From the NCBI GenBank assembly GCA_022539475.1, contig VCMS01000060.1, positions 1-64,000 on the forward strand: a stretch of 64,000 nt of DNA, in the 5' to 3' direction. The stretch comes from Gracilaria domingensis. Taxonomy: Eukaryota; Rhodophyta; Florideophyceae; Gracilariales; Gracilariaceae. The position numbers were made by a program, and so were the translations under genes. Position 1 is the first letter of the stretch; every line of letters starts with the position of its first letter. The notes below the pieces were generated by a model. The model did no database searches and was not told the DNA's origin. It saw nothing but the letters and a program-made list of their open reading frames with translations. Positions 29,870 to 62,480 of the stretch are shown here, piece after piece.

Positions 29870-30788
29870 AGCTCGGCGATGATGTACATGGCACGTATTG
29901 CGCCATGAAGGAACTCTCGAGCAACCTGCTCTTCTTCAACAACAAGAATGACCCGAAAAGCATAGAGTTGTGTGTTGTTAGGAAAGATAATCGCTCTGGA
30001 ATAGATGTAGAGCGGCTGGATTTCGAACGTCAGAGTGTCAACGTCGTATTGTAATGTAGCTCAGCCCAGGCGTATACCGACATCTTGCCAGTCCCTCCGC
30101 GTACTGTGCCTCGTTTCCAACCTCGTAGCGAAATCGCGAAATTCCATCGTCCCTGCTGCTATCTCTGTACGAACCGCTTCCCATCGTATTTATCATACCT
30201 CGAGAATGTCGTCGCCGCCGACACCGAGACGATGCGTGGGACGCGGTCATTACCTGGGTCGTCGCCTTGATAGCAGTTTGTGAGCTCTCACGGGAGGAGG
30301 CTTTTACTACAAAGTTTTAGATCATTGCGAGAAGGCAGGAAGGTAGACCTTGTAGTACACAGTATACGGCCGAGAATTGGCTCTTTGTAAAGTGCCCCGC
30401 GAAGTCGACGTGATCAACTGTAAGACACTAGGCATGTGACGCATATGTCAGGGACATCTCACTCCTGACGCATGATTCGCCCAAGTGGAAGGTGAGAAGA
30501 TTCCGACAAACAATAAGTGTGTGGTGTCGCTCCACCCGAGCTGGAGGCAAATATCGCGGAGGTGACGTCACTGTGTTGCACTCATCCAACCCACTCAATA
30601 TCTCGCCGTGCGAGCGGCGCCCGCGGTGGAAAGCGCCTCTCCAAACGCCGCTGCGATAACGCGTCGCCTCTCCCTCCGCCTCTCACGCGGCGGCAGAGTC
30701 ACTTGGAATTAATGAAGGAGAGGCTCTTGAAATTATTCCGCTCGGCGTGACAAGATCCGCCTGCCGGCCATGTTCGGAACTGCGTTTG

Positions 30789-30796
30789 TATAAAAG
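30789..30796 (+). promoter_or_regulatory. TATA box, array gene 1
   Basis: TATAAAAG 126 bp before the ATG, followed by the shared CTTCTGCTGCTGACATACC. Confidence 0.7.
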
Positions 30797-30914
30797 CTCA
30801 GCGATCTTCTGCTGCTGACATACCTGATGGTTTGATTCACCGCTTCCCCTCCCTTACACACCAAAGTTCAGCTTGCATCTCCCCCACATTCACCGTTAAC
30901 TTCTCCTCCGCATC

Positions 30915-31823
30915 ATGGCCACCTCTACTCGGAACGGCTCTCCGCATCGCATCAGCGCCACCTCTTCCGAAGTGAGCGCAAGCGCTTCGCCAATCGCACA
31001 GCTTCGCACACCCGAAGGCACGATTGCCTCTTGCCTCCGATCCCGGCGAGGCATTGCTAAGCCTCGCGTGTACCGGGCGCTCGGCCAGCGCCACCATGGC
31101 CACCGCCTCACCGTCACAACGGTCAAGTCAGTGTCCACGCCTGCGCTGCCGAGGACGCTGTCGGATGAGAGCAGCAACAACGAAGCTGTACGATGTGCTT
31201 TACCAACCCCCGTCAACCCCCCGCCTTGCTTCGACGCCAGCTCATCCGCGTCGGAGCCAGCCGCCTCGCCCACGGCACAAGCCCAAGCAGTTGAAGGGCC
31301 AATCGCCTCGCGCCTCCGGAGCCGAGCGAACGCCATCACAGCGCGCGGTCATCGGAAGCTCCGCCCGTGGTGCCGAGGCCGTGGCACGCGCGACGCCTCG
31401 CGAAAATCTGTTTGCACGCCACCACCGTCAACGCTTACTTCGCCCGCTCCAGCAATGTCACTCCGGCGTCGAGGATGCAAGAGAGACGCGAGCTTCCTGT
31501 CGGGTGACAGCAGTGTCAGTGAAGCCGTGCAAAGTGCTCTAGCTTTTTCGCCCGACGTTGCCGCGGTCATAGCAACCACCTCGCCACCTCCGAAACGACG
31601 ACGTTCGCATCTCGCTGTCCGCGATCGCACCGTCGCGCGAGCTCTGTCCGCACCGCTGTACCGCGAATGGAAGACACAACGCTTTTTGAAGCAACGCCGC
31701 GCGATGGAGAAAAATAGCGGTCAGAGTTTGGCGCATTACGCCGGTCTGGCTGAGGCTGCGGCGGCTGGCGTCGCGTTCAGTAGGCGGGAGGGCTTCATGC
31801 TGCGTGAGGCGGCTCCACATTGA
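30915..31823 (+). pseudogene. Array gene 1: family protein, degraded C-terminus
   Basis: 302 residues from the conserved ATG context (CATCATGGCC). It has both RLRSR modules (first one EGTIASCLRSR, altered; second EGPIASRLRSR), the basic patch RRGCKRDASFLSGD, the PPPKRRRS patch, and the EWK..FLKQRRAMEKNSGQSLAHYAGLAEAAAAGVAF block. It then ends early at REAAPH. The usual C-terminal residues continue in the +1 frame (31804-31995), but the cysteine motif is gone (LWGGRGACMALDRTS instead of LWEGCxGCELCTEQ). So it is a family member with a frameshift and a lost cysteine motif; it could still make a shortened protein. Confidence 0.7.
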
Positions 31824-32340
31824 TGCACATAAAGCGGAGCGGGAAGCGTGCTGCGACAGGGCGCGGGCGCGGGCTGTGCCTCAGCCGATGCGGAGTGAGT
31901 TTGTCGCACCGGGGGAAGGCGGCGCAACGATGAAAGAAAAGGAGCGGTTGTGGGGAGGGAGGGGTGCTTGCATGGCCCTCGACAGAACTTCTTGATGTAC
32001 ATCGCTAATCTGAAAGGTTGAACTGCAAATAAATTAGCTTCGTCCAATTGTAATGTCGTTTAGAACGTTATCTTCCACGCTGGAGTCCCGAGCCTCTTAT
32101 TCTAGAGAACAATTTTAATTGGATCGGTGGCATGGAAACTACTGGAGGATGATTCACGTCCCCAAGTGCAATGTGCGACCACGCAGAGAGCAACGACCCG
32201 CGACCACGAAGCGCGAGCGCGCTGGCCTCACCTCTACGTCACCACAGCGTTTGGAGCTTCTTGCACATCGGCCCCAACGTATTATATATCCCTGACGATC
32301 CCATTCGTGTCGCGTGTGTCTTCACTACGGCGCTGCAACT

Positions 32341-33520
32341 GCGGTGAGTTAGTCCGGCCAAATTCGTTCCGCACACGCGCTGGTAGCGTGACGCTGTAAA
32401 TACCGTGTACCAACGGTAGAAGGACACCATGTCATACCGCGAATAACCTTCCCGGAGAGCATCGACTGCTGTAGGGCTCAATCGACGTACCACGTGTCTC
32501 ACGGCGCAGATGGGAAAGCTTTCGCTCTTGTATACCGCCTATGACACATGTTCGCGTTGGTGACCAAAGCCATGTGTACACGCAGATACGTATGACACTA
32601 GCCACATTCTCAGGTTCTCCCCGCTACTGCGCTGAAAATAATATTTTCTATTATGACAAATACCACGTTGAATGAGATCGCCCAATCAGGTAAACGCAAC
32701 AATGCTCGAGCTGATTGCGTCCTCAAGCAAGCGGAAAGTGATTGAGCTCGCGTAGGGAGCGTGCCTACCATCCGCATGAAGGTTTCTAATGTTAAGTTTC
32801 TTTTGATCTTGGTCTTACTCTGGACAACACGTTTCCAAAACCATCAGGGAAGCCCGCTGAGATTGCACAAATCGTTCAGTCCACACAAGGGCACAACTCG
32901 GATATCTCCATGTCATGTAAAGTAACGCGTAGAGGCGTGGGATGCACTGCTTCGCAACCTGCCTTGATACTGCATGCAACGTACATGTTATGTACGGATC
33001 TCCTTCTTTCCGCCTCGCTGAAGGTGACGAGAACAAACGGAGTTCCGTTCGGAACTAAATTCTCAAGTGGTGCAAGACATCCCTCAAAGTATTACAACCA
33101 ACCGATGCGCCTAGCTCGCGATCTGATAAAGTTTTATCCACAAGTGTCCCAATCAGCGTCGATCCCGAAGAAACACGAACACAAATCGAGCTCGGCGTTG
33201 CGAAAGAGTTGCGACGCGGAAACAGTGACCACGTGTGCATTAAATTACAAGAGGTGTGTGAGCCGCCGTAAGCCCATCTCACGTGGGTCATGTGACGTAG
33301 ATAAAATTATCTACAATTCTTCGAATTGCTGGCATGTCATTCCTCTTCACGCCGTGGAGAGGGGTTGAACAAAGATACAAATGCACTATGTGAAGAGAGG
33401 CATTAAGTGGCATTCCGCATTCCACCTGATTCATGACCAGCGCTGCAATGCCTGCACTTGGCCGAGAAATAGAGTCAGGCGAACAGCATTTGACGGCATC
33501 TGCTTGCCCCGTCTTGACGG
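32341..33520. other. Intergenic, no gene seen
   Basis: Short frames only. This break in the array contains no family sequence that I can see. Confidence 0.5.
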
Positions 33521-33527
33521 TATAAAA
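33521..33527 (+). promoter_or_regulatory. TATA box of the PH-like gene
   Basis: TATAAAA 101 bp before the ATG at 33622, followed by a pyrimidine-rich leader (TCGTCTGTTCGCCTCCACC). Confidence 0.6.
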
Positions 33528-33621
33528 CCCAACGTACGTCCACTTTCGTCTGTTCGCCTCCACCGCTCCATCATCTCAGTATACCTCTGTGTACAATCTG
33601 GCTCCTCACTCGCAGAAAAAT

Positions 33622-34254
33622 ATGGTTCAACAGCCTTTCGATCAAGCCGTTCACTTCGCCGGGTTCGTGGACTTGCGGTTCTCGCTCTCGTTTATTCATT
33701 TCCGCAACCGTCTTAAGTTCGCCCCACTGCATTACATGGAATTGTGCGAAGATGTGATGCTGTTGTACCCCGCCGCGCAGATCGTCAAACACTCGCCCGA
33801 CATGTCAAGCGAGAACGACCTGCAGTACGCGTCGCAGTCGGAGCTGTCAGCCCTTGCGCGTCAAATCCTGCCGAGCAATGTACTCGTGTTCTTCCCACAC
33901 GACACGCAGTTCATCGAGCTCAGCGACGCCAGTATTGTGCTGAGGAGCAAGGAGAACGGCTACACTCGCATGTTTTTTTCGCGGCAAGAAGACCGGGACA
34001 CTTGGCTGTTGGCTCTGAAGAGAGTCTACAATAAGGATCTGATGGGCAGGTCGAAGCTGGACAACGTGCGTTGTCACCACAAATCGCGGGCGTTGTACAA
34101 CGAGATATCGATGTCAACGGTATTGAATGGAGCGAGGCGCGGCGCAGAAAGCCCTCCACCCAGCGCTCTTACGTACCGAATTGTGAACCCGGCGGCTGCA
34201 CTGAAGTGGGCGGCGCTGAAACATCTCGCCAAGAAGAAGAAAACAATGACATGA
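33622..34254 (+). CDS. PH-domain-like protein
   Basis: 210 residues from the first ATG (MVQQPFDQAVHFAGFVDLRFS). The body reads like a PH fold: a first strand AGFVDLRF, a second and third pair (FRNRLKFAPLHYMELCED, VMLLYPAAQIV), a further strand pair (NVLVFFPHDTQFIELSDASIVLRSKEN), then YTRMFFSRQEDRDTWLLALKRVYN, where the Trp in the final amphipathic helix is the one invariant PH residue. The tail is basic (ending AKKKKTMT). PH domains bind phosphoinositides or proteins at membranes; the ligand here is unknown. The gene is intact, has its own TATA box, and stands alone between array segments. Confidence 0.6.
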   Translation: MVQQPFDQAVHFAGFVDLRFSLSFIHFRNRLKFAPLHYMELCEDVMLLYPAAQIVKHSPDMSSENDLQYASQSELSALARQILPSNVLVFFPHDTQFIELSDASIVLRSKENGYTRMFFSRQEDRDTWLLALKRVYNKDLMGRSKLDNVRCHHKSRALYNEISMSTVLNGARRGAESPPPSALTYRIVNPAAALKWAALKHLAKKKKTMT

Positions 34255-34845
34255 CTGTGTTAGTTCCCCGCCTTGGTCTCTCTTCTTTTCGCACCCCTTC
34301 TCCCCGCCTCCAATCATCTCTTTGCCGTCGTCTACATGTTGTCCGCGTTTTGCTCCAAACTTCATCACGAACCCACGTAATGTGAAGCAGTCGCCCATGA
34401 TCGATCGCTGGCACGATGCAGGAGCGCGTGCTCTCGAGAGCTCACGCACACTTTTCATGAGTTCGTCAGCGGATGCTTAGCAATGACTTTGCCCACGCGT
34501 CACCGGCGGAGATCGAGGACATCAATGCATGATTTTCAAAAATGAAAAATTAACATTGCTTACACTGTCTAACATGTTCTTGTCGTTTCCACTGGCGGAA
34601 AAAAACAACGCACTGCAAATAACGCACCCAGTCGCCCACCGACCCCATCTCCATATATGTGTGCAACGTGTCCATGTGTCACGGCTCTCCCCCGATGAAG
34701 CTCTAAATGAAGTCAACAGTGATATCTGTACTACTACCTTACTATTTGCCCAGCAGGGAATGCGCATTGTGGAAACAAATCACATTTACTCTATCTGAAA
34801 CAAGCAAACAAGACGCAACAACATTAGAGAAGATTACGTTTTACC
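34255..34845. other. Intergenic, no gene seen
   Basis: 3' flank of the PH-like gene. No feature supported. Confidence 0.5.
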
Positions 34846-35029
34846 CAGGGCCGTATTTATGACTACCTGTTTTGCTAAATTATGGACATTGACTGACTAT
34901 TCCGGCAAAACGAGTAGTCATTATCTTATTTAATGAATACTTTTTCGGCGGTCTGACTACTAGATTTTGACGTTTTGTCACTATTTGACTATTTATTCGG
35001 GTGTTTTGGTAGTCACGAATACGCCCCTG
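34846..35029. mobile_element. hAT-type MITE, copy D (184 bp)
   Basis: Begins CAGGGCCGTATTTATGACTAC and ends with the complement of CAGGGGCGTATTCGTGACTAC. The 8-bp flanks are GTTTTACC and GTTTTTCC (7 of 8). Interior shorter than and different from copies A and B; same terminal family. Confidence 0.8.
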
Positions 35030-39720: not shown

Positions 39721-39921
39721 ATATAATCATTAATTCGCCGTGCACAGGGCGCCCGAAGTGGAAAGCGCCTCTCCATCCGCCGCTATGATAGCGTGTCGCC
39801 TCTCCCGCTGCCTCCCACGGAGGCGGGAGAGACATTTGGAATTAACGAAGGAGATGCTCTTGGAATTAATCAACTCGGCGTGACAGGAGCCGCCAGCCGG
39901 TCATGCTCCCAACTGCGTGTG

Positions 39922-39929
39922 TATATAAG
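39922..39929 (+). promoter_or_regulatory. TATA box, array gene 2
   Basis: TATATAAG 132 bp before the ATG, in the shared context AACTGCGTGTGTATATAAGC followed by CTTCTGCTGCTGACATACC. Confidence 0.8.
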
Positions 39930-40053
39930 CGGCGCGCGCTTCTGCTGCTGACATACCAAAAGATTTCAACCAACCATCTTCTCGCTACATCCTCACACGC
40001 CAAAATTCAGCCTGCATCTCCCCCACATTCCTCGTCAACTTCTCCTTTGCATC

Positions 40054-41031
40054 ATGGCCAAAACTACTCCGAACGGCTCGACGCATCGCATCACCGCCAC
40101 TTCTTCCGAGCTAGGCGCAAACGTTTCGCCCTCCACACAGCCTGGCACACGGGAAGGCCCGATCGCCTCTCGCCTCCGATCCCGGGGAGGCATCGCCAAG
40201 CCTCACGTGCCCCAGGTGCTCGGACATCGCCGCCGTACCCACGTCAACCTCGCGCCTTGCTTCGACGCAAGCTTCTCCGCGTCCGTTTCACCCGCTTCGC
40301 TCACTGCGCTCGCCAACGCAGTTGAGGGGCCCGTGGCGTCGCGCCTTCGAAGCCGTGCGAAGACGACCAAACCCCGTGGTCGCCCGACGCTCCGCCCGCG
40401 CCGCAATGGACGTCGCACGCCCGTCGCCACCCGCAAGTCTGTGCGCACCCAGACCCCGCCAACCACGCCGCCGCCCGCATCGTCATCGCAGCGTCGAGGA
40501 CGCAAGAGAGATGCAAGCTTCCTGACAGGTGACAGCACCGTCAGTGAAGCTCTGCGAAGTCCTCTTCCCTTCTCGCCCGACGCTGCAGCGGTTACGCCGG
40601 CAACCACCCCGCCTCCGAAACGCCGACGTTCGCCCGTCGCCGTCCTCGATCGCACCATCGCGCGAGCTCTATCGCCATCGCTGTCCCGCGAATGGAAGAT
40701 GACAAGCTTCTTAGAGCAACGCCGCGCGATGGAAAGGAATAGCGGTCAGAGCTTGGCGCATTACGCCAGTCTGGCAGAGGCGGCGGCGGCGGGCGTCGCG
40801 TTCAGTACGCGCGAGGGCTTCATGCCGCGCGAGGCGGCTTCAGATGAAGCGGGGCGGGAGGCGCAGAGCGACGATGCGTGGGCGCGGGGGGGGCCTCAGC
40901 CGACGGGGAATGTGTTTGGCGCACCGGGGGAAGGCGGCGCTGCGGTGAAGGAAGAAGAGCGGCTGTGGGAAGGCTGTTCAGGGTGCGAGCTGTGTACGGA
41001 ACAGACGTTGTTGATGTACATCGATCTCTAG
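40054..41031 (+). CDS. Array gene 2: disordered basic protein with C-terminal Cys motif
   Basis: 325 residues, one of three intact-looking members. In order: Ser/Thr-rich start; EGPIASRLRSR at 34-44; a second module EGPVASRLRSR at 91-101, each followed by an Arg/Lys/Pro-rich stretch; RRGRKRD at 147-153; SEALRSPLPFSPDAA; PPPKRRR at 186-192; EWKMTSFLEQRRAMERNSG near 213-231; SLAHYASLAEAAAAGVAF at 233-250; a Gly/Glu-rich linker; then EERLWEGCSGCELCTEQ with Cys308, Cys311 and Cys314, ending MYIDL. The two basic patches look like nuclear localisation signals and the Cys spacing (CxxCxxC) could bind metal; both are inferences. No known domain is recognised. Promoter and start context are shared with the other copies. 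Confidence 0.8.
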   Translation: MAKTTPNGSTHRITATSSELGANVSPSTQPGTREGPIASRLRSRGGIAKPHVPQVLGHRRRTHVNLAPCFDASFSASVSPASLTALANAVEGPVASRLRSRAKTTKPRGRPTLRPRRNGRRTPVATRKSVRTQTPPTTPPPASSSQRRGRKRDASFLTGDSTVSEALRSPLPFSPDAAAVTPATTPPPKRRRSPVAVLDRTIARALSPSLSREWKMTSFLEQRRAMERNSGQSLAHYASLAEAAAAGVAFSTREGFMPREAASDEAGREAQSDDAWARGGPQPTGNVFGAPGEGGAAVKEEERLWEGCSGCELCTEQTLLMYIDL

Positions 41032-41075
41032 TTTGTAAGGGGGAGCTGCAAGTAAAATAATTTTGGCAAATTGTA

Positions 41076-43069: not shown

Positions 43070-43193
43070 AAGCGCGAGCTTCTGCTGCTGACATACCGGC
43101 AGATGTCTTCCAACCCTTCTCCTCCGTACAAGTTCTCACGCCAAAATCAGCCTACATCTCCCTCACACTCAACGTCAACTTTTCCTCCACATC

Positions 43194-44222
43194 ATGGCCA
43201 CCAGCTCTACTCATGACAGCTCCCCGCATTGCGCCGTCATTAACTCTTCGGCATGGGACACAAGCGCTTCGCCAATCGCACCTTCTGGCGAGACATCCGG
43301 CGCACAGGAAGGCCCGATCGCCTCTCGCCTTCGATCCCGGCGAAACAGTGACAAACCTCGTGTGCACCAGGCACTAGGACAGCGCCGCCATCGCCGCCGA
43401 ATCGCCGTCGCCACGGCTAAGTATGTGCCCGCGTTGGCACCATCAAGGACAGTGTCGAATGATAGCAGCGACAAGGAAGCTGTGCGAAGTGCTTCGCGAA
43501 CCCCAATAACTCCTCCGTTTTGCTTCGACACGAGCTTATCCGCGTCATTTCCAGCGGCCTCGCCCACTGCACAAGACAACGCAGTTGAAGGGCCAATCGC
43601 ATCGCGCCTCAGAAGCCGAGCGACCGCTGTTAAACCTCACCAGACCCTCCACTCGGGCCGCCAAGGACGTCGCCCGCCCGCCGCCTCCCGCAAGTCTGTG
43701 CGCACCCAGACCCCGCCAACTACGCCGTCGCCCGCATCGTCATCGCAGCGTCGAGGACGCAAGAGAGACGCGAGCTTCCTGTCAGGTGACAGCACCGTCA
43801 GTGAAGCTCTGCGAAGTCCTCTTGCTTTTTTGCCCGACGCTGCAGCGCTTACGCTGGCACCCACCTCCCCACCGCCGAAAAGACGACGTTCGCCCGTCGC
43901 CGTCCTCGATCGCACCATCGCGCGAGCTCTGTCCCCATCGCTGTCAGGCGCATGGAAGACGAAACTCTTTTTAGAGCAACGCCGCGCGATGGACAGAGAT
44001 AGCGGTCTGAGTTTGGCGCATTACGCCAGTCTGACAGAGGCGGCGGCGGCGGGCGTCGCGTTTAGCAGGAGGGAGGGCTTCATGCCGCGGGAGGTGGCCT
44101 CTGGTGAAGCGGGGCGGGAAGCGCAGAGCGACGATTCGCGGGCGCCGGCTGTGCCTCAGCTGATGCGTAGCGAATTTGTGGCAGCGGCAGTGGGCGGCGC
44201 AGCGATGGGAGCGCAGTGGTGA
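43194..44222 (+). pseudogene. Array gene 3: C-terminus shifted, then hit by Harbinger
   Basis: 342 residues with both EGPIASRLRSR modules, RRGRKRDASFLSGD, PPPKRRRS, and the FLEQRRAMDRDSGLSLAHYASL block. The frame then ends at GGAAMGAQW. The expected KEEELLWEGCAGCELCTEQ sequence is present just downstream but in another frame, and the Harbinger element starts in its last codons (44284). Together with the worn TATA box this is probably a dying copy. The first three quarters of the protein remain open. Confidence 0.7.
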
Positions 44223-48733: not shown

Positions 48734-50115
48734 GGCGTCTGCACTGATGTTTGTATTGAGGGTTGGACAGAGATATGTCATGAAGAGCCATACGAGAATG
48801 TTTTCGTACGCCGCTCGGTTTGTACGAATTTTCGTACAGAGATCTCGTACAATTCTCGCACAGCTACTCCAGATCTTCCATCTGTGTGAGCTGTTTCTCA
48901 TAAATTTACGAGATTTGTCGGTGCGTAAACTCTCTGTTGTAGATGTACGTCGATAGTTTGTAGGGCTCAACTGTAAATAAATTACGTTTGGCAAATTGTA
49001 ATGTCGTACTCTAGAATAATTCTAATTGGATCGGTAGCATGCAAATTAGCGTTGATTCATCTCTGCATCTGCGAAGTGCGACCAAGCAAAGCCGAAGGCC
49101 TAGAGAACTTTGCTATCCTCGGTAGTGATGTACAAGCGAGTTGCGCCTTTTGGTAGTGATGTACGCGAGAAGTATTTCGTCTTGATCTGAAGTCCCCAGG
49201 AACCTGCTGTTCTTCATCGTCCCCGCTGCTACCTTTTTACTAACTGCTTCTCATCGTATTGCACTTATCTTACCCTTAGAATGTCATCGCCGCTGACATT
49301 GAGGCGATGCGTGAGATAAGCCGACATCAATCAGACCGATAGCATGCGTCAGGCGCAGCGGTTGCCCGTCTGCCACAGCCAACGGTGCAAGTGCCTTATG
49401 CCAGCTAATCGAAAGCCAATTCCGGAAATTAGTGGTGTCAGCTGCAGATGGCAGTAACAGAGTCTTAACTGACACCCACAGCTGACAGCATCACGCATAT
49501 TCAGCCGTCAGGCTGTGGTTTTGGGACAGGTATGTACATTCCATGGGACGTCGCCTTGATAGCGGTTTTTGATCTCTCAGGTGAGGAGGTCTTTATTACA
49601 AAGTTTTAGATCACTGCGGGAAGATAGGAAGGTAGACGTTGTACTGCGCAGGCTACGGGAGAGAAACAGCTCTATGGTGAAACCCCATGTGAAGTCTACG
49701 TGATCAACTGAAATCGACAATGCATGTGACGCATATGTCACTTTAATTGAAGGGACATCTCGCTGTTGACGCGTGCTTCGGCAACACGGAAGGTGGCGAG
49801 ATTCGAATACATACGACGTGTGTGGTGCCGCTCCACCCGAGCTGGAGACAAATATCAAGGAAGCGACGTCACTGTGTTGCACTCATCCAACCCACTCAAA
49901 ACCTCGCCGTGTGCCATTGCCACGGCGAGGTTGAAAGCGCCTCTGCAATCGCTGCTACGATCACGCGCCGTCTCTCCCGCCTCTCTCACGCGGCGGCAGA
50001 GTCACTTGGAAATGGGGCAGGAGAATCAGTTGGAATTAATGTAAGAGATGCACTTGGAATTGATCACCGCGGCGTGACCAGAGCTGCCAGCCGGTCATGG
50101 TTCCAACTGCGTGTG

Positions 50116-50123
50116 TATATAAG
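50116..50123 (+). promoter_or_regulatory. TATA box, array gene 4
   Basis: TATATAAG 133 bp before the ATG, in the context AACTGCGTGTGTATATAAGC. Confidence 0.8.
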
Positions 50124-50248
50124 CTGAGCGCGCTTCTGCTACTGACATACCTGCTGATTTCATCCAACCCTTCTCCTCACTGCAATTTAACACACCACAG
50201 TTCAACCTTCATCTTCTGCGCATTCATCGTCAACATCTCCTCTCCATC

Positions 50249-51319
50249 ATGGCCAGCTTCAATGACGACAGCTCCGCGCATCGCACCACCCCTAGCTGTG
50301 CCGAATGGGACACAAGGGCCACGCCCATCGCACTGTCTAGCGAGACATCTGGCAAACCGGAAGGACCGATCGCTTCTCGCCTCCGATCCCGGCGAAACAG
50401 TGCCAATCCTCGCATCCTCCTCACGCTCGCACCGCGCCGCCATAGGCGCAGCCTCGCCATCACCAAGGCTGAGTCCAATGACAGCAGCGACGAGGCTCTG
50501 CGAAGTGCTTCACCTGCCCCCACCACCCATCCCCCTTCCTTCGACCGCGGCTCAAGCGCATCGGTTCGAGGCGCCTCGCCCACTGCACTCACCAACGCAG
50601 TTGAAGGGCCAATCGCGTCGCGCCTCAGAAGCCGAACGAAGCCGACCAAACCTCGCGGTCGCCAGACGCTCCGCCCGCGCCGCCAAGGACGTCGCACACC
50701 CGTCGCCTCCCGCAACTCACCGCCCACCACGACCGCGCAAACCACACCGCCGCCCACACCGTCATCGCAGCGTCGAGGACGCAAGAGAGACGCGAGCTGC
50801 CTGTCGGATGACAGAACCGTCAGTGAAGCTGTGCGAAGTCCTCTTGTTTTTTCGCCCGACGCTGCAGCGGCCACGTCGGCAATCACCCCCCCACCGCCGA
50901 AACGCCGACGTCCGCCCGTCGCTGTTCGCGATCGTACCGTCGCGCGAGCTCTGTCGCCATCGCTCTCCCGCGCATGGAAGACGAAACTCTTTTTAGAGCA
51001 ACGCCGCGCGATGGAACGGAACAGCGGCCTGAGCTTGGCACACTACGCCAGCCTGGTAGAGGCGGCGGCGGCGGGCGTCGCGTTTAGCAGGCGGGAGGGC
51101 TTCATGCCGCGCGAGGCGGCCTCTGGTGAAGCGGGACCGGAGGCGCAAAGCGACGATGCGCGTGCAGTGCCTCAGCCGATGCGGAGGGCATTTGTTGCAT
51201 CGGCGGCGGGCGGCGCAGTGGTGAAGGAGGAGCTGTCGTGGGAGGGCTGCGCGGGTTGTGGGCTGTGCACGGAACAAACGTTGTTGATGTACATCGATAG
51301 TTGTAAGGCTGACTTGTAA
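50249..51319 (+). CDS. Array gene 4: longest + strand family member
   Basis: 356 residues. It has EGPIASRLRSRRNSANPRI and, about 90 residues later, EGPIASRLRSRTKPTKPRG; RRGRKRDASCLSDD; SEAVRSPLVFSPDAAA; PPPPKRRRPPVAVRDRTVAR; AWKTKLFLEQRRAMERNSG; SLAHYASLVEAAAAGVAFSR; and the C-terminal KEELSWEGCAGCGLCTEQ, with CxxCxxC intact. The end is extended by a few residues (MYIDSCKADL) past the stop position of genes 2 and 5. Closest to gene 6 in text (both have NSPPTTT, SDDRTVSE and RRPPVAV). The gap between modules lacks the PALAPSRTVSND-type stretch of genes 3 and 6. Confidence 0.8.
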   Translation: MASFNDDSSAHRTTPSCAEWDTRATPIALSSETSGKPEGPIASRLRSRRNSANPRILLTLAPRRHRRSLAITKAESNDSSDEALRSASPAPTTHPPSFDRGSSASVRGASPTALTNAVEGPIASRLRSRTKPTKPRGRQTLRPRRQGRRTPVASRNSPPTTTAQTTPPPTPSSQRRGRKRDASCLSDDRTVSEAVRSPLVFSPDAAAATSAITPPPPKRRRPPVAVRDRTVARALSPSLSRAWKTKLFLEQRRAMERNSGLSLAHYASLVEAAAAGVAFSRREGFMPREAASGEAGPEAQSDDARAVPQPMRRAFVASAAGGAVVKEELSWEGCAGCGLCTEQTLLMYIDSCKADL

Positions 51320-51825: not shown

Positions 51826-52605
51826 TCAACCTCCTCCGCCCTCCTTCGGCGAGGCGTCCCACAGCGCGTCCACGAGCGCCTTGGGCAGGGGCGGAAGATA
51901 GACGCGGTACGTCCATGGTGGCCGCTCTGCCGGAAACTGTCTTGCCCCATCAATGTCGCGCAGTCCCCCTGGATAGTTCCGTTCAGCTTCCGCGACGGTG
52001 GGGTTGACGGCAGCGGCAGAAGCGCCGGCAGCTGGAACTTGCGTGTGGCGGCGTCGCAACACGCGACCGACACCGTTATCCATCGCGTGACGATGCTGCT
52101 CAAACCGCGGCCTCCTCCACTCGCGATGCCCCGTCGGCGAGCCTGCTTCGGGCGAGCTATCGGAGAGGGAGATAGGCACGCGGAGTCGCTTTGGCACCGG
52201 CGGGGAGGACGGCGGCGTGAAGGCAAACAGCAGCGAGGGCGATGAACACATTTGCACCACTTCGCTGTCCGTGGTGTCTCCCGAGCTGCCATCTGACAGA
52301 GCTTCGGCGCCTCTCTTCGTTCCTCTTGGCGCCGGCGACGGTATCGCGATTGGCTGCGGGGACGGCGGCGTCGGCCACGCGAGGCCGGTGGCGAGCAGGA
52401 CGCGGCGGCGGCGGCGGCGATTGCGGATGGCCTTTCGAAGGCGGAGCTTCGCGATGTGCCCTCGGGGCCGGCGCGGCGCCGTCGGGACATGATGAGTGGG
52501 AACGGGATGGACGGCGGATGTGGGGTTTGCGTCCAGTGGGGAGCGTGAGGCAGCGGGTCTAGTGGGGGGTCTATTGGGGGTGGTGTCGGGCGTGAAGTCG
52601 GCCAT
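51826..52605 (-). CDS. Divergent family member on the opposite strand (259 aa)
   Basis: Starts MADFTPDTTPNRPPTRPAAS. The family layout is recognisable though the text has drifted: GHIAKLRLRKAIRNRRRRRR at 49-68 (first RLRSR module plus basic run), TKRGAEALSDGSSGD at 96-110 (RKRDASFLSGD), SSPPVPKRLRVP at 133-144 (PPPKRRRSP), and HREWRRPRFEQHRHAMDNGVG at 160-180 (EWKxxxFLEQRRAMExNSG). No C-terminal Cys motif; instead a Pro/Trp-rich end (PPWTYRVYLPPLPKALVDAL). The same promoter style is found 128-137 bp upstream. Same order, same spacing and different codons argue for protein-level constraint. Confidence 0.75.
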   Translation of the reverse strand: MADFTPDTTPNRPPTRPAASRSPLDANPTSAVHPVPTHHVPTAPRRPRGHIAKLRLRKAIRNRRRRRRVLLATGLAWPTPPSPQPIAIPSPAPRGTKRGAEALSDGSSGDTTDSEVVQMCSSPSLLFAFTPPSSPPVPKRLRVPISLSDSSPEAGSPTGHREWRRPRFEQHRHAMDNGVGRVLRRRHTQVPAAGASAAAVNPTVAEAERNYPGGLRDIDGARQFPAERPPWTYRVYLPPLPKALVDALWDASPKEGGGG

Positions 52606-53573: not shown

Positions 53574-54686
53574 TCACGGGCTTGAGATAAAGTGAGCGCC
53601 ATCGTGCACGGATGGTGTCCGGCCTTGAACCGCAGCAAGATCCTCCGCGACAGCATCGTCAGCGACATAGGCGTAGGAATCGTCGCGATATTCCGAATAG
53701 CGAGGGCTTCCAATGACGTAAGCTCCTCTCGCGTCGCCAGTTTCGCTAACAGCCTCTGCGCTTGGCTCACCCACAACCTGGCCGCTCTGCTCGTGGGGTA
53801 CAGAAGCGGCCGCAGCGGGGGAAGCGCTACGTCGCAGCGAGGACGACGGGCTTTCGATGGCGTAAGCGCGTCTCGTCCCACGCCCAGAGTTACCGCTCGC
53901 TCTCACACCTTGCAACTCCATCACCTGGCCCCGCGGTTCTCCCGCTGCTTCATCTCTTCCAACATGCCCGGAGGCAAGCACGATGCACGTCTCATGACGT
54001 ACATTACTCGCAACGGAATGCTCGCGATCGACGTAATGCACACGACGACGTTTCGGTGAGGGGCCAGGCGCGGACGGGGCGATGGTTGGTGGCAACGGAG
54101 AGGCCACAGCATGCGGGGGCTGAATTCTGTCAGCGGAGATGCTGTAAGCGTCCCTCTTCCGTCCGCGGCGCGTTGGCATCGGCGGCGAAGCCCATCTCGA
54201 CACGAGATACGTGCGTTGCATGGGGACGACCATTGGGCTGAGGTAACGGCGGGGACGAGGAACCTCTGCGACTTGGCTACAGGGTTGAAGCTGGAGCGGT
54301 ATACATGGGAGACCCGGCAAGACCGCTTCGGGGGCGTTTTCCACAGCAGCATCGGCTCCAGATGCGACAACGGCTGCCGAACATCGAGGAGAGAACGCCC
54401 ATTCCTCTCTCGATGTGTCTGTGATTGGCCCGAAAGCTGTTGCCACAGGAGCTTCCATAGGATGGTGGGGGATCGCACGGAGTCGGAGCGTGAAACCGCC
54501 AGATGGAGCTGCCACGGTCTCGCGGAATTCTGGCGGCGGTGAGGAAGCAGCGAAGCGGTTCGGGTATGGACGAACCGCATGCTGATGAGCGGTTGAGGAA
54601 AAGGCTTCTTCGCCGTACAGATCGTGGACTGATGAGGATGAGGCGGCGGAACTGGAGTGAGTGCCGGTCGGGGTGGGTGAAGACAT
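53574..54686 (-). CDS. Second divergent family member on the opposite strand (370 aa)
   Basis: Begins MSSPTPTGTHSSSAASSSSV. An ATG upstream in the same frame (54836) overlaps the TATA box, so it is not the start. Family landmarks: PTRRGRKRDAYSISADRIQP at 171-190, then AVASPLPP, then PSPKRRRVHYVDREHS at 209-224, matching RRGRKRDASFLTGD, LRSPLPFSP and PPPKRRRSPVAVLDR of array genes. The front half is Pro/Ser/Ala-rich with a GGFTLRLRAI that may be a drifted RLRSR module. The back half is unlike the array genes: two loose repeats around YAIESPSSSLRRS and YVIGSPRYSEYRD. No Cys motif. A sister of the 259-aa gene in orientation and promoter style. Confidence 0.65.
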   Translation of the reverse strand: MSSPTPTGTHSSSAASSSSVHDLYGEEAFSSTAHQHAVRPYPNRFAASSPPPEFRETVAAPSGGFTLRLRAIPHHPMEAPVATAFGPITDTSREEWAFSPRCSAAVVASGADAAVENAPEAVLPGLPCIPLQLQPCSQVAEVPRPRRYLSPMVVPMQRTYLVSRWASPPMPTRRGRKRDAYSISADRIQPPHAVASPLPPTIAPSAPGPSPKRRRVHYVDREHSVASNVRHETCIVLASGHVGRDEAAGEPRGQVMELQGVRASGNSGRGTRRAYAIESPSSSLRRSASPAAAASVPHEQSGQVVGEPSAEAVSETGDARGAYVIGSPRYSEYRDDSYAYVADDAVAEDLAAVQGRTPSVHDGAHFISSP

Positions 54687-56282: not shown

Positions 56283-56290
56283 TATAAATA
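56283..56290 (+). promoter_or_regulatory. TATA box of the zinc-finger gene
   Basis: TATAAATA 133 bp before the ATG, the same spacing as in the array genes. A short CATA-type microsatellite lies in the leader (56346-56373). Confidence 0.65.
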
Positions 56291-56415
56291 TATGTACTGC
56301 TTCAGCCCATTGAAAATCTCTCTCTCATCGACACACAGAGAGGAGACATACATACACACATACATATACATACCGACGCACACATCAGAAGGCATACAAA
56401 AAGCACTATCTCGAC

Positions 56416-57426
56416 ATGAATCACGAAAATAGAAATTCACATCCAGGAAGTGGAGATAGAAAAAGACCCCTGCAAGGACAAGACCACAATCGTAGTCAGA
56501 GACAACGCCAGGCATCTTCAAATCGGCCCACTCCGTCTCCTGAACTCCCTTCATTTGCTGAGGTTGTAAGACGAGCTGAGAACATCAACATGAGGACACC
56601 GGCAAGTACTGCTCGTTTGACTTCATGGGGCACATTCTCTTCCGATGCTTCTCCTTTTGTTCTCCCTTCTGTTACATCTCTTATGGATGAGGCCAATCGA
56701 ACGGAGAGTAGCGGTACTAATTCTGGCCGGACATCAAACTTGCCAGCGCCTTCTAGTCGTCCTCAAAATCACGCTGCTTCTAGGCCGCCAAGAGCCCCAA
56801 AGCCACCAGGGTCCCCAGATCTAGCCACTCCAGTGCTTGTGTCTCCAGCAAGTGCCCCATCCAGAGCCGGAAGAGGTCGCGTAGCTGGTAGTAGTGATGG
56901 TGGCGGAGGTCGAAGCAGAGCATCAGGGCAGGCGGGAGGCGCAGCACGCAAAGAAAAATGTCCAAAGTGCTCGTTGCGCATCTCCGGACCAATGAATTCT
57001 CACACGTGCGAAACACTGACATGTGATAAATGTGATTACACCACTGTCCGCACTTCCAACTTACGCCGTCATGTATATTTGAGACACATTGGAACGAGTG
57101 GCGAAGCAGGTAGAAGTGACAGTCATGCAGGAGGGAGTGGCAGCACATCAGGGGACGTTGCAGCTTCTAGTTCTAGGCGAAGATGCACGAGGTGTTCCTT
57201 GTATGTGTCCGGAGCGATGCATTCTCACAAATGCAAAATATGGACGTGTCCAGTTGAAAATTGTGGTTTCACGACTGTTCGTCAAGCAAACTTGCGCCGT
57301 CATGAATCTGCGCTGCATGCGGAGGGTACACGCCCGCAGTTTCGGTGCCCTGATTGTGGAAAGATATTTAATAGGAAAGATAATATGGATCAACACATGT
57401 TGCTTAGTTGCAGAGGTAAACGCTGA
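56416..57426 (+). CDS. Zinc-finger protein with a duplicated CCHC-CCHH module
   Basis: 336 residues. The first 175 are Ser/Pro/Arg-rich and probably disordered. Then module 1: a CxxC-x10-HxC knuckle (Cys182, Cys185, His196, Cys198) and a classical finger (Cys203, Cys206, His219, His224, TCDKCDYTTVRTSNLRRH). A Gly/Ser linker is followed by module 2: knuckle (Cys257, Cys260, His271, Cys273) and finger (Cys278, Cys283, His296, His301, TTVRQANLRRH). A last finger FRCPDCGKIFNRKDNMDQH closes with Cys332 instead of the second His. The two modules are clear duplicates. Likely a DNA-binding regulator; targets unknown. The frame is intact, with TATA box and leader. Not related to the array proteins by any motif I can see, though it lies inside their cluster. 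Confidence 0.85.
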   Translation: MNHENRNSHPGSGDRKRPLQGQDHNRSQRQRQASSNRPTPSPELPSFAEVVRRAENINMRTPASTARLTSWGTFSSDASPFVLPSVTSLMDEANRTESSGTNSGRTSNLPAPSSRPQNHAASRPPRAPKPPGSPDLATPVLVSPASAPSRAGRGRVAGSSDGGGGRSRASGQAGGAARKEKCPKCSLRISGPMNSHTCETLTCDKCDYTTVRTSNLRRHVYLRHIGTSGEAGRSDSHAGGSGSTSGDVAASSSRRRCTRCSLYVSGAMHSHKCKIWTCPVENCGFTTVRQANLRRHESALHAEGTRPQFRCPDCGKIFNRKDNMDQHMLLSCRGKR

Positions 57427-57949
57427 AGACATTTCCAACTGGATGAAGAATTGTCTCCAAGTTAGGGTGCGGCTTCAGTAAGTAAACCATAGATACTTTG
57501 ACCTCCTCTGTAAACGTTTTCGACATTTTCAATAGTGCGGTGCTTCCAGTTTTATTGTTATCAGCTAGTTTAGAGAATAAGTTTGACGATGCGCTGAGTC
57601 CGGTAATGGGCTTGTCTCAGGCAAAACCGAGCACAGAAACCCGCAGATGATTGTGTACTACCACTGCAGGTTCCCGCCGAAAGCGGACGCCTACATAAGA
57701 TCACTTCAGTGCCGCGATGCCCGTAGCTTGCGGATCGTGGAGACCTCCCCATTCAGCTTAGCATCGAGTATTGTTTAGAGTAACTTTAGCCGCCGAAACC
57801 TTACACAATCTATAACCTGACTCTTTTCGTACGGCTTTTCTGAATTTCCATCGATAGCGGCAGATCTCACGTCCAACGGTGATTCAGCTCAAAACCGTTT
57901 GAAATGCCGAGCGTCAGCCAGGCAGTCCCCGCAGGGTATGATAGGGAAT
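57427..57949. other. Intergenic, no gene seen
   Basis: 3' flank of the zinc-finger gene up to the start of array unit 5. Confidence 0.5.
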
Positions 57950-58382
57950 TGGCTCATTGGCAACGTCCCATGCGAAGTCCACGAGACGAGATCAACTGTA
58001 AGAGACATTGAAGATGACGCATATGTCAATTTAATGAAGGGATATCTCATTGCTGAGGCGTAATTCGCTCAAGCGGAAGGTGAGAAGATTCGGACAAATA
58101 TATATAAAGTGCGTGGTGCCGCTCCACTCGAGCTGTAGGCAAATTCCACGGAGGCCTCCTCGCCGTGTTGAACTCATCCAACGCACTCAAAACTTCGCCG
58201 TGCGCCATTGTCACGGCGAGGTTGAAAGCGCCTCTCCAACCATCGCAACGGTAACGCGTCGCCTTTCCCGCTGCCTCTCACGCGGCCGTAGAGGCACTTG
58301 GAACTGGTGCGGGACGGGAACTTGGAATTAATCACCCTGGCGTGACAAGCAGGCCCTGGTGACTAGAGCCGCAATTCGGTCA

Positions 58383-58445
58383 TGGCCAGAACTGGGTGTG
58401 TATACACAAGCCGTGCGCGTTCCTGCTGCTGATATTCCTGATGAT
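58383..58445 (+). promoter_or_regulatory. Second, worn copy of the core promoter before gene 5
   Basis: GGCCAGAACTGGGTGTGTAT and CTGCTGCTGATATTCCTGAT, 244 bp upstream of the working promoter, as in unit 2. Confidence 0.65.
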
Positions 58446-58645
58446 ATAATCATTACCTCGTCGTGCACACGGCGCCTGAAGGGGAAAGCGCGTCTCCATT
58501 TGCCGCTACGATAACGCGTCGCCTCTCTTCCCGCCTCTCACGGCGGCGGGAGAGTCATTTAGAATTAACGAAGGAGATGCTCTTTGGAATTAATCAACTC
58601 GGCGTGACAGGAGCCGCCAGCCGGTCATACTCCCAACTGCGTGTG

Positions 58646-58653
58646 TATATAAG
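58646..58653 (+). promoter_or_regulatory. TATA box, array gene 5
   Basis: TATATAAG 129 bp before the first ATG. Confidence 0.8.
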
Positions 58654-58774
58654 CGGCACGCGCTTCTGCTGCTGACATACCTGATGATCTGATTCAGCCC
58701 TCTCCTCGCTTCATCCTCACAGGCTAAACTTTTACCTGCATCTCCCCCACATTCCTCGTCAACTTCTCCTTTGC

Positions 58775-59743
58775 ATGATGACCACATCTACTCAGAACGG
58801 CTCCCCTCGTCGCATCACCAATGCTTCTTCCGAACTGGGCACAACCGCTTCGCCCCCCGCACAGCCTGGCACACCGGAAGGCCCGATCGCTTCTCGCCTC
58901 CGATCCCGGGGAAGCATCACCAAGCCTCGCATGCCCCAGGCGCTGGGACAGCGCCGCCGTACCCACGTCAACCGCCTGCGTGGCTTCGATGCGAGCTCCT
59001 CCGCGTCGGTTTCGCCCGCTACGCCCACTGCACTCGCCAACGCAGTTGATGGGCCCGTGGCGTCGCGCCTGCGAAGCCGTACGAAGGCGGCCAAACCTCA
59101 TGGTAGCGAGACGCTCCGCCGGCGCCGCAATGGAAATCAAACGCCCGTCGCCACTCGCAACTCACCGCCCACCACGACCCCGCAAACCACACCGCCGCTC
59201 ACACCATCATCGCAGCGTCGAGGACGCAAGAGAGATGCGAGCTTCCTGACAGGTGACAGCACCGTCAGTGAAGCTCTGCGAAGTCCTCTTGCTTTTTCGC
59301 CCGACGCTGCAGCGGTTACGCCGGCAAATACCCCCCCGCCTCCGAAACGCCGACGTTCGCCCGTCGCCGTCTTCGATCGCACCATCGCGCGAGCTCTGTC
59401 CCCATCGCTATCTTGCGAATGGAAGACGACACGCTTCTTAGAGCAACGCCGCGCGATGGAAAAAGATAGCGGTCAGAGTTTGGCACACTACGCCAGTCTG
59501 GCAGAGGCGGCGGCGGCGGGCGTCGCGTTCAGTACGCGCGAAGGCTTCATGCCGAGCGAGGCGGGGTGGGAGGCGCAGAGCGACGATGGGTGGGCGCGGG
59601 CTGGGCCTCAGCCGGCCGGGGGTGTGTTTGGCGCACCGGGGGAAGGCGGCGTTGCGGTGAAGGAAGAGGAGCTGCTGTGGGAGGGCTGTTCAGGGTGCGA
59701 GCTGTGTACGGAACAGACGTTGTTGATGTACATCGATCTCTAG
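58775..59743 (+). CDS. Array gene 5: intact family member, sister of gene 2
   Basis: 322 residues (two ATGs in a row; the second at 58778 aligns with the other copies). Modules EGPIASRLRSRGSITKPRM and DGPVASRLRSRTKAAKPHG; RRGRKRDASFLTGD; SEALRSPLAFSPDAAA; PPPPKRRRSPVAVFDRTIAR; EWKTTRFLEQRRAMEKDSG; SLAHYASLAEAAAAGVAFST; and an intact end EEELLWEGCSGCELCTEQ with MYIDL. It shares TGDST, AFSTREGFM and the GVFGAPGEGG stretch with gene 2, and the doubled promoter, so genes 2 and 5 are the closest pair. Its centre (NSPPTTTPQTTPPLTP) is instead like genes 4 and 6, a hint of gene conversion. Confidence 0.8.
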   Translation: MMTTSTQNGSPRRITNASSELGTTASPPAQPGTPEGPIASRLRSRGSITKPRMPQALGQRRRTHVNRLRGFDASSSASVSPATPTALANAVDGPVASRLRSRTKAAKPHGSETLRRRRNGNQTPVATRNSPPTTTPQTTPPLTPSSQRRGRKRDASFLTGDSTVSEALRSPLAFSPDAAAVTPANTPPPPKRRRSPVAVFDRTIARALSPSLSCEWKTTRFLEQRRAMEKDSGQSLAHYASLAEAAAAGVAFSTREGFMPSEAGWEAQSDDGWARAGPQPAGGVFGAPGEGGVAVKEEELLWEGCSGCELCTEQTLLMYIDL

Positions 59744-61171
59744 TTTGTAAGGGGGAGCGGCAAGTAAAATAAGTTTGGCAAATTGTAATGGCGTTCAGAA
59801 CGACATCCTTCACGCTGGAGGCCCCAAACTCGTACTCCAGAACAATTGTAATTGGATCGGTAGCATGCACATTCGTGTTGTTCCACCTCCGCAACTGCAA
59901 AGTGCGACAACGCAAGACGAAGGTCTGAACAATGGTACAGGGGTAGTAGTGTACACGAGACGTATTGCACCTTGATCTAAAGTCCCTGGCAAGCTGCTGT
60001 TCTTCAACGAGACGAATGAAACGAAACACATAGAGGTATGTGGGGTAGGTGATGTTGAGAAAGAGATATCACTCTCAGATAGATGTAGAGCAATATGGAT
60101 TTCAAACGTCCGTGATATCAACGTCGCATTGAAATGTGGCGCAGGTGTATATTAACTGCGTCCGCTTGACAAATCTCTTCGGCCACGGACACAGCCGTGC
60201 CTAAAGCCAGGGCGGATGCAGCCGTCTTACCAGTCCCTCCACAAACTGTGCCTCCTTTCCAACCCCACATCGAAATCGCACAAGTCCATCGCCCCCGCTG
60301 CTACTTTTCACTAACCGTTTTCCATCGTATTGCACTTATCTTACCCTTAGAATGTCATCGCCGCTGACATCGAGGCGATGCGTGAGATAAGCCGACATCA
60401 ATCAGACCGATTGCCTGCATCAGGCGCAGCGGTTGCCCGTCTGCCACAGCCAATGGTCCAAGTGCCTCCTGCCAGCTAATCACAAGCTAATTCCGGTATT
60501 GTGGTGCTGTCAGCTGCAAATTACAGTCACAGACATCTACAGCTGACGGCATCGATATTCAGCCGCCAGGATTTGGTTTTGGGACAGGTATGTACATTAC
60601 ATTGGACGTCGCCTTGATAGCGGTTTTCGATCTCTCAGGTGAGGAGGCTTTTATTACAAAGTTTTAGATCACTGCGGGAAGATAGGAAGGTAGACATTGT
60701 ACTCAGGCTACGGTAGAGAAACAGCTCTATGGTGAAAACCCATGTGAAGTCCACGTGATCAACTGAAATCGACAATGCATGTGACGCATATGTCACTTTA
60801 ATTGAAGGGACATCTCGCTGTTGACGCGTGCTTCGGCAACACGGAAGGTGGCAAGATTCGAATACATACGACGCGTGTGGCGCCGCTCCACCCGAGCTGG
60901 AGACAAATGTCAAGGAAGCGACGTCACTGTGTTGCACTCATCCAACCCACTCAAAACCTCGCCGTGCGTCATTGCAACGGCGAGGTTGAGAGCGCCTCTG
61001 TAATCGCTGCTACGATCACGCGTCACCTCTCCCGCCGCCTCTCACGCGGCGGCAGAGTCACTTGGAAATGGGGCAGGAGAATCAGTTGGAATTATTGTAA
61101 GAGATGCACTTGGAATTGATAACCGCGGCGTGACTAGAGCCGCCAGCCGGTCATGGTCCCAACTGCGTGTG

Positions 61172-61179
61172 TATATAAG
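61172..61179 (+). promoter_or_regulatory. TATA box, array gene 6
   Basis: TATATAAG 133 bp before the ATG, context AACTGCGTGTGTATATAAGC. Confidence 0.8.
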
Positions 61180-61304
61180 CTGAGCGCGCTTCTGCTGCTG
61201 ACATACCTGCTGCTTTCAACCAACACTTCTCCTCACTGCAAATTCACACACCACAGTCCAACCTTCATCTCCTCCGCATTTAACATCAACAACTCCTCCG
61301 CACT

Positions 61305-62421
61305 ATGGCCAGCTTCACTGAAGACAGCTCCACGCATCGCACCACCCCTAGCCGTTCCGAATGGGACACAAGCGCAACGCCCATCGCACGCTCTGGCGCG
61401 ACATCTGGCGCACCGGAAGGACCGATCGCCTCTCGCCTCCGATCCCGGCGAAACAGTGCCAATCCTCGCGTGCTCCACACGCTCGCACACCGCCGTTCTA
61501 GCCGCCGCCTCGCCATCACCAAGGCTAAGTCTAAGTCTACACCGGCACCCGCGAGGACGCTGTCCAATGACAGCAGCGACAATGAAGCTCTGCAAAGTGC
61601 TTCACCTGCCCCCACCACCTCTCCCCTTTCCTTCGACGCCGGCTCATCGGCATCGGTTCCATGCGCGTCGCCCACTGCAAAAGTCAACGCAGTTGAAGGG
61701 CCAATCGCATCGCGCCTCCGAAGCCGTGCGAAGGCGACCAAACCTCGTGGTCGCCAGACGCTGTGCTCGCGCCGCCAAGGACGTCGCACGCCCGCCACCT
61801 CCCGCAACTCACCGCCCACCACGACCCCGCCAGCCACACCGTCGCCCACACCGTCATCGCAGCGTCGAGGACGCAAGAGAGACGCGAGCTTCCTGTCGGA
61901 TGACAGAACCGTCAGTGAAGCTCTGCGAAGTCCTCTTGTTTTTTCGCCCGACGCTGCAGCGGCTACGCCGGCAATCGCACCCGCACCGCCGAAACGCCGA
62001 CGTCCGCCTGTCGCCGTCCGCGATCGTACCGTCGCGCGAGCTCTGTCACCATCGCTCTCCCGCGAATGGAAGACGAAACTCTTTTTAGAGCAACGCCGCG
62101 CGATGGAAAAGAATGGCGGTCAGAGCTTGGCACACTACGCCAGCCTGGCAGAGGCGGCGGGCGGCGGGCGTCGCGTTCAGCAGGAGGGAGGGCTTCATGC
62201 CGCGCGAGGCGGCCTCTGGTGAAGCGGGGCGGGAGGTGCACAGCGACGATGCGCGGGCGCGGGCTGTCCCGCAGCCGATGCGTAGCGCATTTGCAGCGGC
62301 GGTGGGCGGCGCAGTGGTGGGCGGCGCAGAGGTGAAGGAGGAGGAGCTGCTGTGGGAGGGCTGTGCGGGGTGCGAGCTGTGCACGGAACAGACGTTGTTG
62401 ATGTACGTCGATAGTTTGTAG
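61305..62421 (+). pseudogene. Array gene 6: frameshift in a GCG run, C-terminus in +1 frame
   Basis: From the ATG the frame runs 305 residues to 62222 with all front motifs (two EGPIASRLRSR modules, RRGRKRDASFLSDD, PPKRRRPPVAV, FLEQRRAMEKNGG, SLAHYASLAEAA). It then passes into an odd GGGRRVQQEGG tail. The cause is one extra base in the alanine-coding GCG run (GAGGCGGCGGGCGGCGGGCG, against GAGGCGGCGGCGGCGGGCG elsewhere). The normal end, AAGVAFSRREGFM through EEELLWEGCAGCELCTEQ and MYVDSL, continues open in the next frame to 62421. So the C-terminus is conserved but out of frame: a recent lesion, slippage at the run, or an assembly error. Confidence 0.7.
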
Positions 62422-62480
62422 CGCTCAACTGGAAGTAAATTACGTGTGGCAAATTGTAATGTCGTTCAGGGCGGCACGTG

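Follow-up and report, generated by a model that had tools for sequence, protein, structure and literature searches.

The first 64,000 bases of contig VCMS01000060.1 (C60) of the red alga Gracilaria domingensis, referred to here as the window, raise the question of whether an array of repeated open frames for basic proteins is a functional gene family and, if so, what its products may do. The six plus-strand copies (A to F, called type 1) start where the original prediction had placed them, the order of their motifs is identical in all six, as had also been claimed, and their open frames from the ATG are 302, 325, 342, 356, 322 and 305 codons long, respectively:

30915..31823, plus strand: type-1 copy A, truncated by a stop after REAAPH; the first module reads IASCLRSR
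40054..41031, plus strand: type-1 copy B, complete frame of 325 residues with the CxxCxxC tail
43194..44222, plus strand: type-1 copy C, 342 residues, intact almost to the C-terminus, then a frame shift
50249..51319, plus strand: type-1 copy D, complete frame of 356 residues
58775..59743, plus strand: type-1 copy E, complete frame of 322 residues
61305..62222, plus strand: type-1 copy F, frame shift inside an Ala-rich stretch, CxxCxxC tail out of frame

The frame is complete in three copies, the number given earlier: B, D and E read through to the C-x2-C-x2-C end. The CxxCxxC codons of C and F survive in another frame beyond a 3' frame shift, and in copy A none were seen in any frame. These copies belong to a real multigene family whose products are intrinsically disordered and strongly basic and which has been shaped by tandem and segmental duplication and by frequent copy decay. 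Our preferred reading, to which we assign a probability of roughly 45%, is that the family is confined to one lineage, evolves by birth and death and encodes disordered basic nuclear proteins that would be made around S phase and whose modules may tether chromatin.

The earlier description of the proteins as disordered, basic and lacking a known domain is borne out. The isoelectric point lies between 10.6 and 11.8 for copies A to F (A, C and F trimmed to the intact frame), hydrophobic residues are few, and Pfam and NCBIfam give no usable match. The AlphaFold2 model of copy D has a mean predicted local distance difference test score (pLDDT) of 45, with one 36-residue helix and a C-terminal helix. 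The elements that matter most below are listed for copy D, together with the ratio of nonsynonymous to synonymous differences per site (pN/pS):

50363..50392, plus strand: first GPIASRLRSR module, residues 39-48, block pN/pS 0.13
50606..50635, plus strand: second GPIASRLRSR module, residues 120-129, conserved columns, block pN/pS 0.12
50963..51070, plus strand: predicted single helix, residues 239-274, WKTKLFLEQRRAM..EAAAAG, over the FLEQRRAM block, pLDDT about 61-71, pN/pS 0.27

Selection preserves the short linear motifs and the predicted helix of the type-1 proteins and leaves the linkers almost free to drift. Summed over pairs, pN/pS is 1.15 in the N-terminus, 0.13 in module 1, 0.79 in linker 1, 0.12 in module 2, 0.96 in linker 2, 0.74 in the RRGRKRD region, 0.49 in PPPKRRR, 0.27 in DRTxARALSP, 0.27 in the helix or FLEQRRAM block and 0.36 in the C-terminus. 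The ratio of nonsynonymous to synonymous substitution rates (dN/dS) had been expected to fall below 1 in the motif blocks; this effect is evident for the modules, DRTxARALSP and FLEQRRAM (0.12-0.27), and weaker for RRGRKRD..SPDA and PPPKRRR. Parsimony on the tree, which was used because it avoids counting one change repeatedly, yields block ratios of 0.08-0.29 for the motifs versus 0.70-1.07 for the N-terminus and linkers. The motif blocks (both modules, DRTxARALSP and the helix) accumulate 35.5 nonsynonymous to 53.5 synonymous changes, against 265.8 to 114.2 in the N-terminus and linkers (Fisher p 1.9e-7, a value that is biased because the blocks were named from amino-acid conservation). Column shuffles are free of this naming: pN falls below 0.05 in 25 of the 273 ten-codon windows, a count matched in 0 of 2000 shuffles, and the corresponding pS windows are unclustered (614 of 2000). 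In a Goldman-Yang (GY) codon model, the one model compared, freeing omega instead of fixing it at 1 raises the log likelihood from -4507.6 to -4500.4 with eight sequences (a gain of 7.2 log units) and from -3803.0 to -3798.3 with seven (4.7 log units), with the null kappa on a five-point grid and columns filled in at least five of the eight sequences. Pairwise dN/dS is mostly 0.4-0.7, with a range of 0.24-1.17 that includes short pieces of an interrupted copy on contig C102, and frame 0 has the lowest ratio of the three sense frames in nine of ten pairs (the exception is D/F). Gaps in multiples of three make up 81 of 181 in the coding region versus 16 of 107 upstream, figures of little weight in that the pairs are non-independent and the aligner split indels.

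These results bear on the possibility that the units are a degenerate repeat or derive from a transposon (Gag-like), with no present function. Tandem units that carry their flanks, the breakage of three of the six window copies, a D/F ratio near 1 and a 98% identical inverted repeat of 3.4 kb on contig C169 are in keeping with such an origin, which is nevertheless improbable given that constraint is confined to motifs, that the loci are few compared with the 43 matches of the adjoining transposase, that no transposon domain is present and that the units have a promoter element of their own. A known transposon protein, the outcome that the original prediction had named as fatal to its view, did not appear: no transposase, gag, reverse transcriptase or integrase domain was found in Pfam or NCBIfam. 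Dispersed copies were not seen either, type-1 upstream DNA having matches on C60 and C102 only and type-1 proteins lying on five contigs, and a dispersed transposon was rejected on the same comparison of loci with transposase matches.

A TATA box is located at -126 to -133 in seven of the ten type-1 copies examined (C and the copies labelled c169 and c42 are without TATAWA), and just downstream of the TATA position all ten contain the element GCTTCTGCTGCTGACATA, which is identical in seven and has one change in three. A search of the 78 Mb assembly that allowed at most one mismatch located the 18-base core element 11 times, 11 of 11 fronting type-1 copies, and the control reading gave 0. In the window, the core promoters are as follows:

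30789..30822, plus strand: copy A, TATAAAAG and the element TCTTCTGCTGCTGACATA
39922..39955, plus strand: copy B, TATATAAG and GCTTCTGCTGCTGACATA
43078..43095, plus strand: copy C, core element GCTTCTGCTGCTGACATA without TATAWA
50116..50149, plus strand: copy D, TATATAAG and GCTTCTGCTACTGACATA
58646..58679, plus strand: copy E, TATATAAG and GCTTCTGCTGCTGACATA
61172..61205, plus strand: copy F, TATATAAG and GCTTCTGCTGCTGACATA

Further upstream lies an inverted repeat, CTCTCCCGCC..GGCGGGAGAG, the half of which corresponds to TYTCCCGCC, which PMC5464667 describes as an E2F element of plants. A perfect palindrome with 10-base arms occurs at two places in the genome, on C42 and C102, both of which are type-1 promoters; the other type-1 copies have weaker inverted repeats, and copy C has no clear one:

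30668..30698, plus strand: copy A, decayed inverted repeat at the E2F-like place, no TYTCCCGCC
39800..39831, plus strand: copy B, imperfect inverted repeat with GGCGGGAGA (TYTCCCGCC on the minus strand)
49970..50003, plus strand: copy D, imperfect inverted repeat with TCTCCCGCC
58523..58554, plus strand: copy E, imperfect inverted repeat with GGCGGGAGA
61027..61057, plus strand: copy F, imperfect inverted repeat (11/12) with TCTCCCGCC

Within 400 bases upstream, TYTCCCGCC is present in 8 of 10 type-1 promoters and in both promoters of a sister gene, type 1', at -197 to -277. Over the same 400 bases it was found in none of seven promoters of a neighbouring family, type 2 (one has the shorter TCCCGCC), and not at the zinc-finger gene between copies D and E. 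The background is 0.045 per 400 bases in 167,500 fetched bases, family promoters included. As a yardstick, six of ten MCM-family matches were used (two with the start outside the stretch and two weak ones were left out, and the starts are first-methionine guesses): TTTSSCGSS is present upstream of five of the six and TYTCCCGCC upstream of two, between -159 and -296, a band similar to that of the family. The family promoters all lack TTTSSCGSS. Genes with an E2F_TDP domain exist in the G. domingensis genome, and PMC6606799 and PMC11376382 describe E2F as the driver of S-phase genes in another red alga, C. merolae. The type-1 genes are probably transcribed together with S-phase genes, as these sites suggest. 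The likeness to E2F-regulated S-phase genes such as MCM and plant DRTS lies in the plant E2F element and in its position, the E2F-type sites of the algal MCM genes being mostly 159-296 bases upstream. In contrast, the family products are not replication enzymes, the family carries TYTCCCGCC and not the TTTSSCGSS of MCM, and the core element was found at the family alone.

The E2F-type sites in most promoters, together with the RLRS core, point to a possible role as a nuclear regulator or chromatin-binding protein. In the mechanism we propose, nuclear entry of the protein would depend on the basic clusters RRGRKRD and PPPKRRR, and the E2F-type element would time its expression to S phase. The remaining steps are the least certain: the duplicated GPIASRLRSR module may hold the protein on chromatin, most likely through an arginine anchored in the acidic patch of H2A-H2B, the presence of two modules per protein may allow two-handed nucleosome binding, and the helix block might recruit a partner. 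Acidic-patch tethering is the best single guess for the modules, perhaps one in four, because constraint is strongest in the blocks with the duplicated RLRS core, the patch stretches of H2A are kept and published binders are similar. In each of the three H2A genes found, the stretches where the acidic patch lies read EYLTAEVLEL and DEEL.

HMGN and Dsup are both basic and disordered, and the type-1 proteins resemble them in disorder, in basic composition and in having a short arginine/serine motif. PMC12487698 describes HMGN RRSARLSA and Dsup RRSSR as binding the acidic patch, in an arginine-anchor mode found in otherwise unrelated proteins; published acidic-patch binders are rich in arginine and serine, and in an acidic-patch structure (PMC9040877) R7, L8 and R9 all make contacts. 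The type-1 core is GPIASRLRSR, not RRSARLSA or RRSSR, so the likeness is in kind only and type 1 is not classed as a member; no sequence homology was detected, the flanks differ, and type 1, a putative binder, has two modules per protein. Those R7, L8 and R9 contacts, reported for tethers of the LANA type of Kaposi's sarcoma-associated herpesvirus, form an Arg-Leu-Arg run like that of the GPIASRLRSR module, although type 1 is a cellular algal family and no homology is claimed from this likeness. A more specific form of the preferred reading, which we regard as rather unlikely, is that the red algal lineage independently acquired a multicopy architectural protein of chromatin that is expressed in S phase. 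This disordered protein would clamp the nucleosome with its two modules, the RLRS core of each sitting on the acidic patch of one face, and the freely drifting linker would be constrained only as a tether; such a protein would be HMGN- or Dsup-like although built from unrelated sequence, and its E2F-type promoter would be its own.

The modules may also have a different use. In the same nuclear disordered family, they may be docking or phosphorylation sites (for a cell-cycle kinase, an importin, RNA or a transcription cofactor), such that the protein would be a regulator or scaffold and no nucleosome binder. Each of eight type-1 proteins read from the ATG, with three of the six from the window in trimmed form, has 10-16 Ser-Pro or Thr-Pro sites, the basic clusters resemble nuclear localization signals, the promoters carry E2F-type sites and the helix block is constrained too. 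The RLRS core, however, occurs twice and within the blocks under the strongest constraint, an arrangement that fits multivalent tethering somewhat better, and we hold the docking alternative to be possible but tentative.

Several observations weigh against the preferred reading of a chromatin-tethering family made around S phase. Half of the six window copies have a broken 3' end, hardly any constraint is seen between the close relatives D and F (0.92), and the N-terminus and linker 2 evolve neutrally. The RLRS core has only four residues; it is altered in the first module of copy A (IASCLRSR) and absent from type 1', and the best of the matches to PDB chains, none of them useful, is unrelated (E 1.3). 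The antisense frame -1 has a ratio equal to or below that of the sense frame in five of ten pairs. A low ratio in this frame is expected because third positions coincide, so the frame test alone leaves the strand unfixed, and the strand is fixed instead by the shared ATG, the promoter element and distant sense-frame relatives. With respect to the promoters, copies A and C are without TYTCCCGCC, and 2 of 40 shuffles of the copy D upstream region reach 10/12 paired bases, so that the 10/12 inverted repeats of A, D and the copies f102 and c169 alone are not beyond chance. The promoter counts are not independent because the copies share ancestry; despite this caveat, TYTCCCGCC is kept in type 1' and in the distant C42 and C169 copies.

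Searches for relatives gave no match in Pfam at E ≤1 for three type-1 proteins and none at E ≤0.1 for type 1' and type 2, one of five type-2 members matching L-fibroin at E 0.11. A match of one of ten members to the NCBIfam SCO2400 family (E 0.0044) was set aside as likely composition. A viral origin was rejected, with no relative among the viral contigs scanned, and a cyclin-docking reading of the module was dropped, its core being RLR and not the RxL of cyclin docking. An Akirin-like reading of the KRRR clusters was set aside as well. No relative was found outside G. domingensis in word-based protein searches that scored about 8,000 candidates each, with uncontrolled coverage of other red algal proteomes. 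A description of the family was not found among the papers listed on SRLRSR/IASRLRSR, red algal E2F and Rhodophyta orphan or tandem genes, in a literature mostly without subscription papers; the SRLRSR/IASRLRSR search gave one paper, which is unrelated. The failure to find relatives elsewhere, the turnover of copies, the nearly free linkers and a structurally different counterpart on C102 would also suit a cluster that is selfish or driven by conflict, whether through drive or sex linkage, where competition and not benefit to the alga maintains the copies. There is no clear nonsynonymous excess, the highest block ratio being the 1.15 of the N-terminus, and we consider such a cluster very improbable.

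The type-1 family looks like an uncharacterised, lineage-restricted disordered family of nuclear type, with unusually clear selection at the level of motifs and a promoter element of its own. Because domain libraries miss disordered nuclear proteins, families of this kind are easily dismissed as repeats or as "hypothetical"; in the present case, the DNA by itself is enough to tell conserved motifs apart from freely drifting linkers and to link the family with a distinct promoter. Should the modules bind nucleosomes, acidic-patch tethering would have arisen independently once more, and red algae would offer a way to study the origin and turnover of chromatin proteins.

Beyond the six window copies, a protein search of the whole assembly, which comprises 680 contigs and 77.9 Mb, places type-1 members on C102 (two), C169 (two), C42 (one) and C54 (one, decayed), a count that leaves out two matches at E 0.24 and 0.71. 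One C102 copy, the counterpart of copy E, is split in two pieces about 6 kb apart (C102:55994-61990), with an open frame on either side. The C169 pair sits in a 98.3% identical inverted repeat of 3.4 kb (C169:374874-382767), each arm of which comprises a type-1 gene and a type-2-like frame. The region C60:51.4-64.5 kb is collinear piece by piece with C102:39.6-70.7 kb at 82-93% identity, which reflects either a segmental duplication or a rearranged second haplotype. Two minus-strand genes of the window, overlooked in the earlier description, belong to the same cluster:

51829..52605, minus strand: sister gene type 1', 259 residues, with GTKRGAE, PKRLRV and REWRRPRFEQHRHAM, without the RLRS core
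53577..54686, minus strand: type 2, a neighbouring family, 370 residues, RRYL..RTYL..RRGRKRDA..SPKRRRV with RRAYxIESPSSS repeats

The type-1' protein matches type-1 loci on C169 at E 4.8e-21 and copy E at 3.3e-9. A second type-1' copy lies at C60:75097-75930, with a pN/pS of 0.56 for the pair, and type-1' pieces are also present on C102. Relatives of type 2 are found on C60 (two more), C102, C124, C42 and C54, one match at E 0.096 not being counted; four copies, including that of the window, have open frames of 370-533 codons, and pN/pS over six pairs is 0.58-0.89. Type 2 is likewise predicted to be disordered (pLDDT 34), with a net charge near neutral. It has the RRGRKRDA and SPKRRR clusters in common with type 1, and the two are either homologous or alike merely in these clusters. 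The order type 2 to type 1' is common to C54 and C60. Adjoining the type-2 genes, a duplicated open frame (MTQGQQTGTGEIKTVTWAWFEAGTPP...) of about 490 codons per copy is present at C60:65604-67088 and 71276-72754.

Deposited predictions that correspond to type-1, type-1' or type-2 members or parts of them are FGB62_60g02, 60g07, 60g016, 60g017, 60g019, FGB62_102g05 and 102g017-019. These G. domingensis entries are recorded as hypothetical proteins; a further one, the type-1' protein at C60:75097-75930, is deposited as "alpha-catulin", which looks like a misannotation. Several gene models end differently from the frames read here; copy E, for instance, is deposited as FGB62_60g07 with a differing C-terminus.

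The six copies do lie in the array delimited earlier at 29870..62480, but the cluster runs past 62480, with sister genes to about 78 kb on C60. Flanking DNA repeats along with the gene, as proposed; the distance from E to F (2,530 bases) is the only spacing directly readable as a unit of 2.4-2.6 kb, and the other gaps contain other DNA. The view that this DNA consists of insertions holds for a transposon gene between C and D, which has 43 matches genome-wide, but not for part of the D-E gap (51.4-57.6 kb), which is itself cluster and contains the type-1' and type-2 genes of the minus strand as well as a C2H2 zinc-finger frame, each of them with a counterpart on C102:

44356..45576, plus strand: transposase gene (DDE_Tnp_4, Pfam) between copies C and D, outside the family

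The zinc-finger frame (window 56314-57423, plus strand) is 90% identical to its C102 copy and has distant relatives on other contigs, several of them with stops. Elsewhere in the window, a possible copia-type gag remnant (Retrotran_gag_2, under the curated cut-off) is located at 10810-11448 on the minus strand, and two HAD-type hydrolase frames (Hydrolase_3) lie on opposite strands at 2650-3606 (plus) and 4022-4642 (minus).

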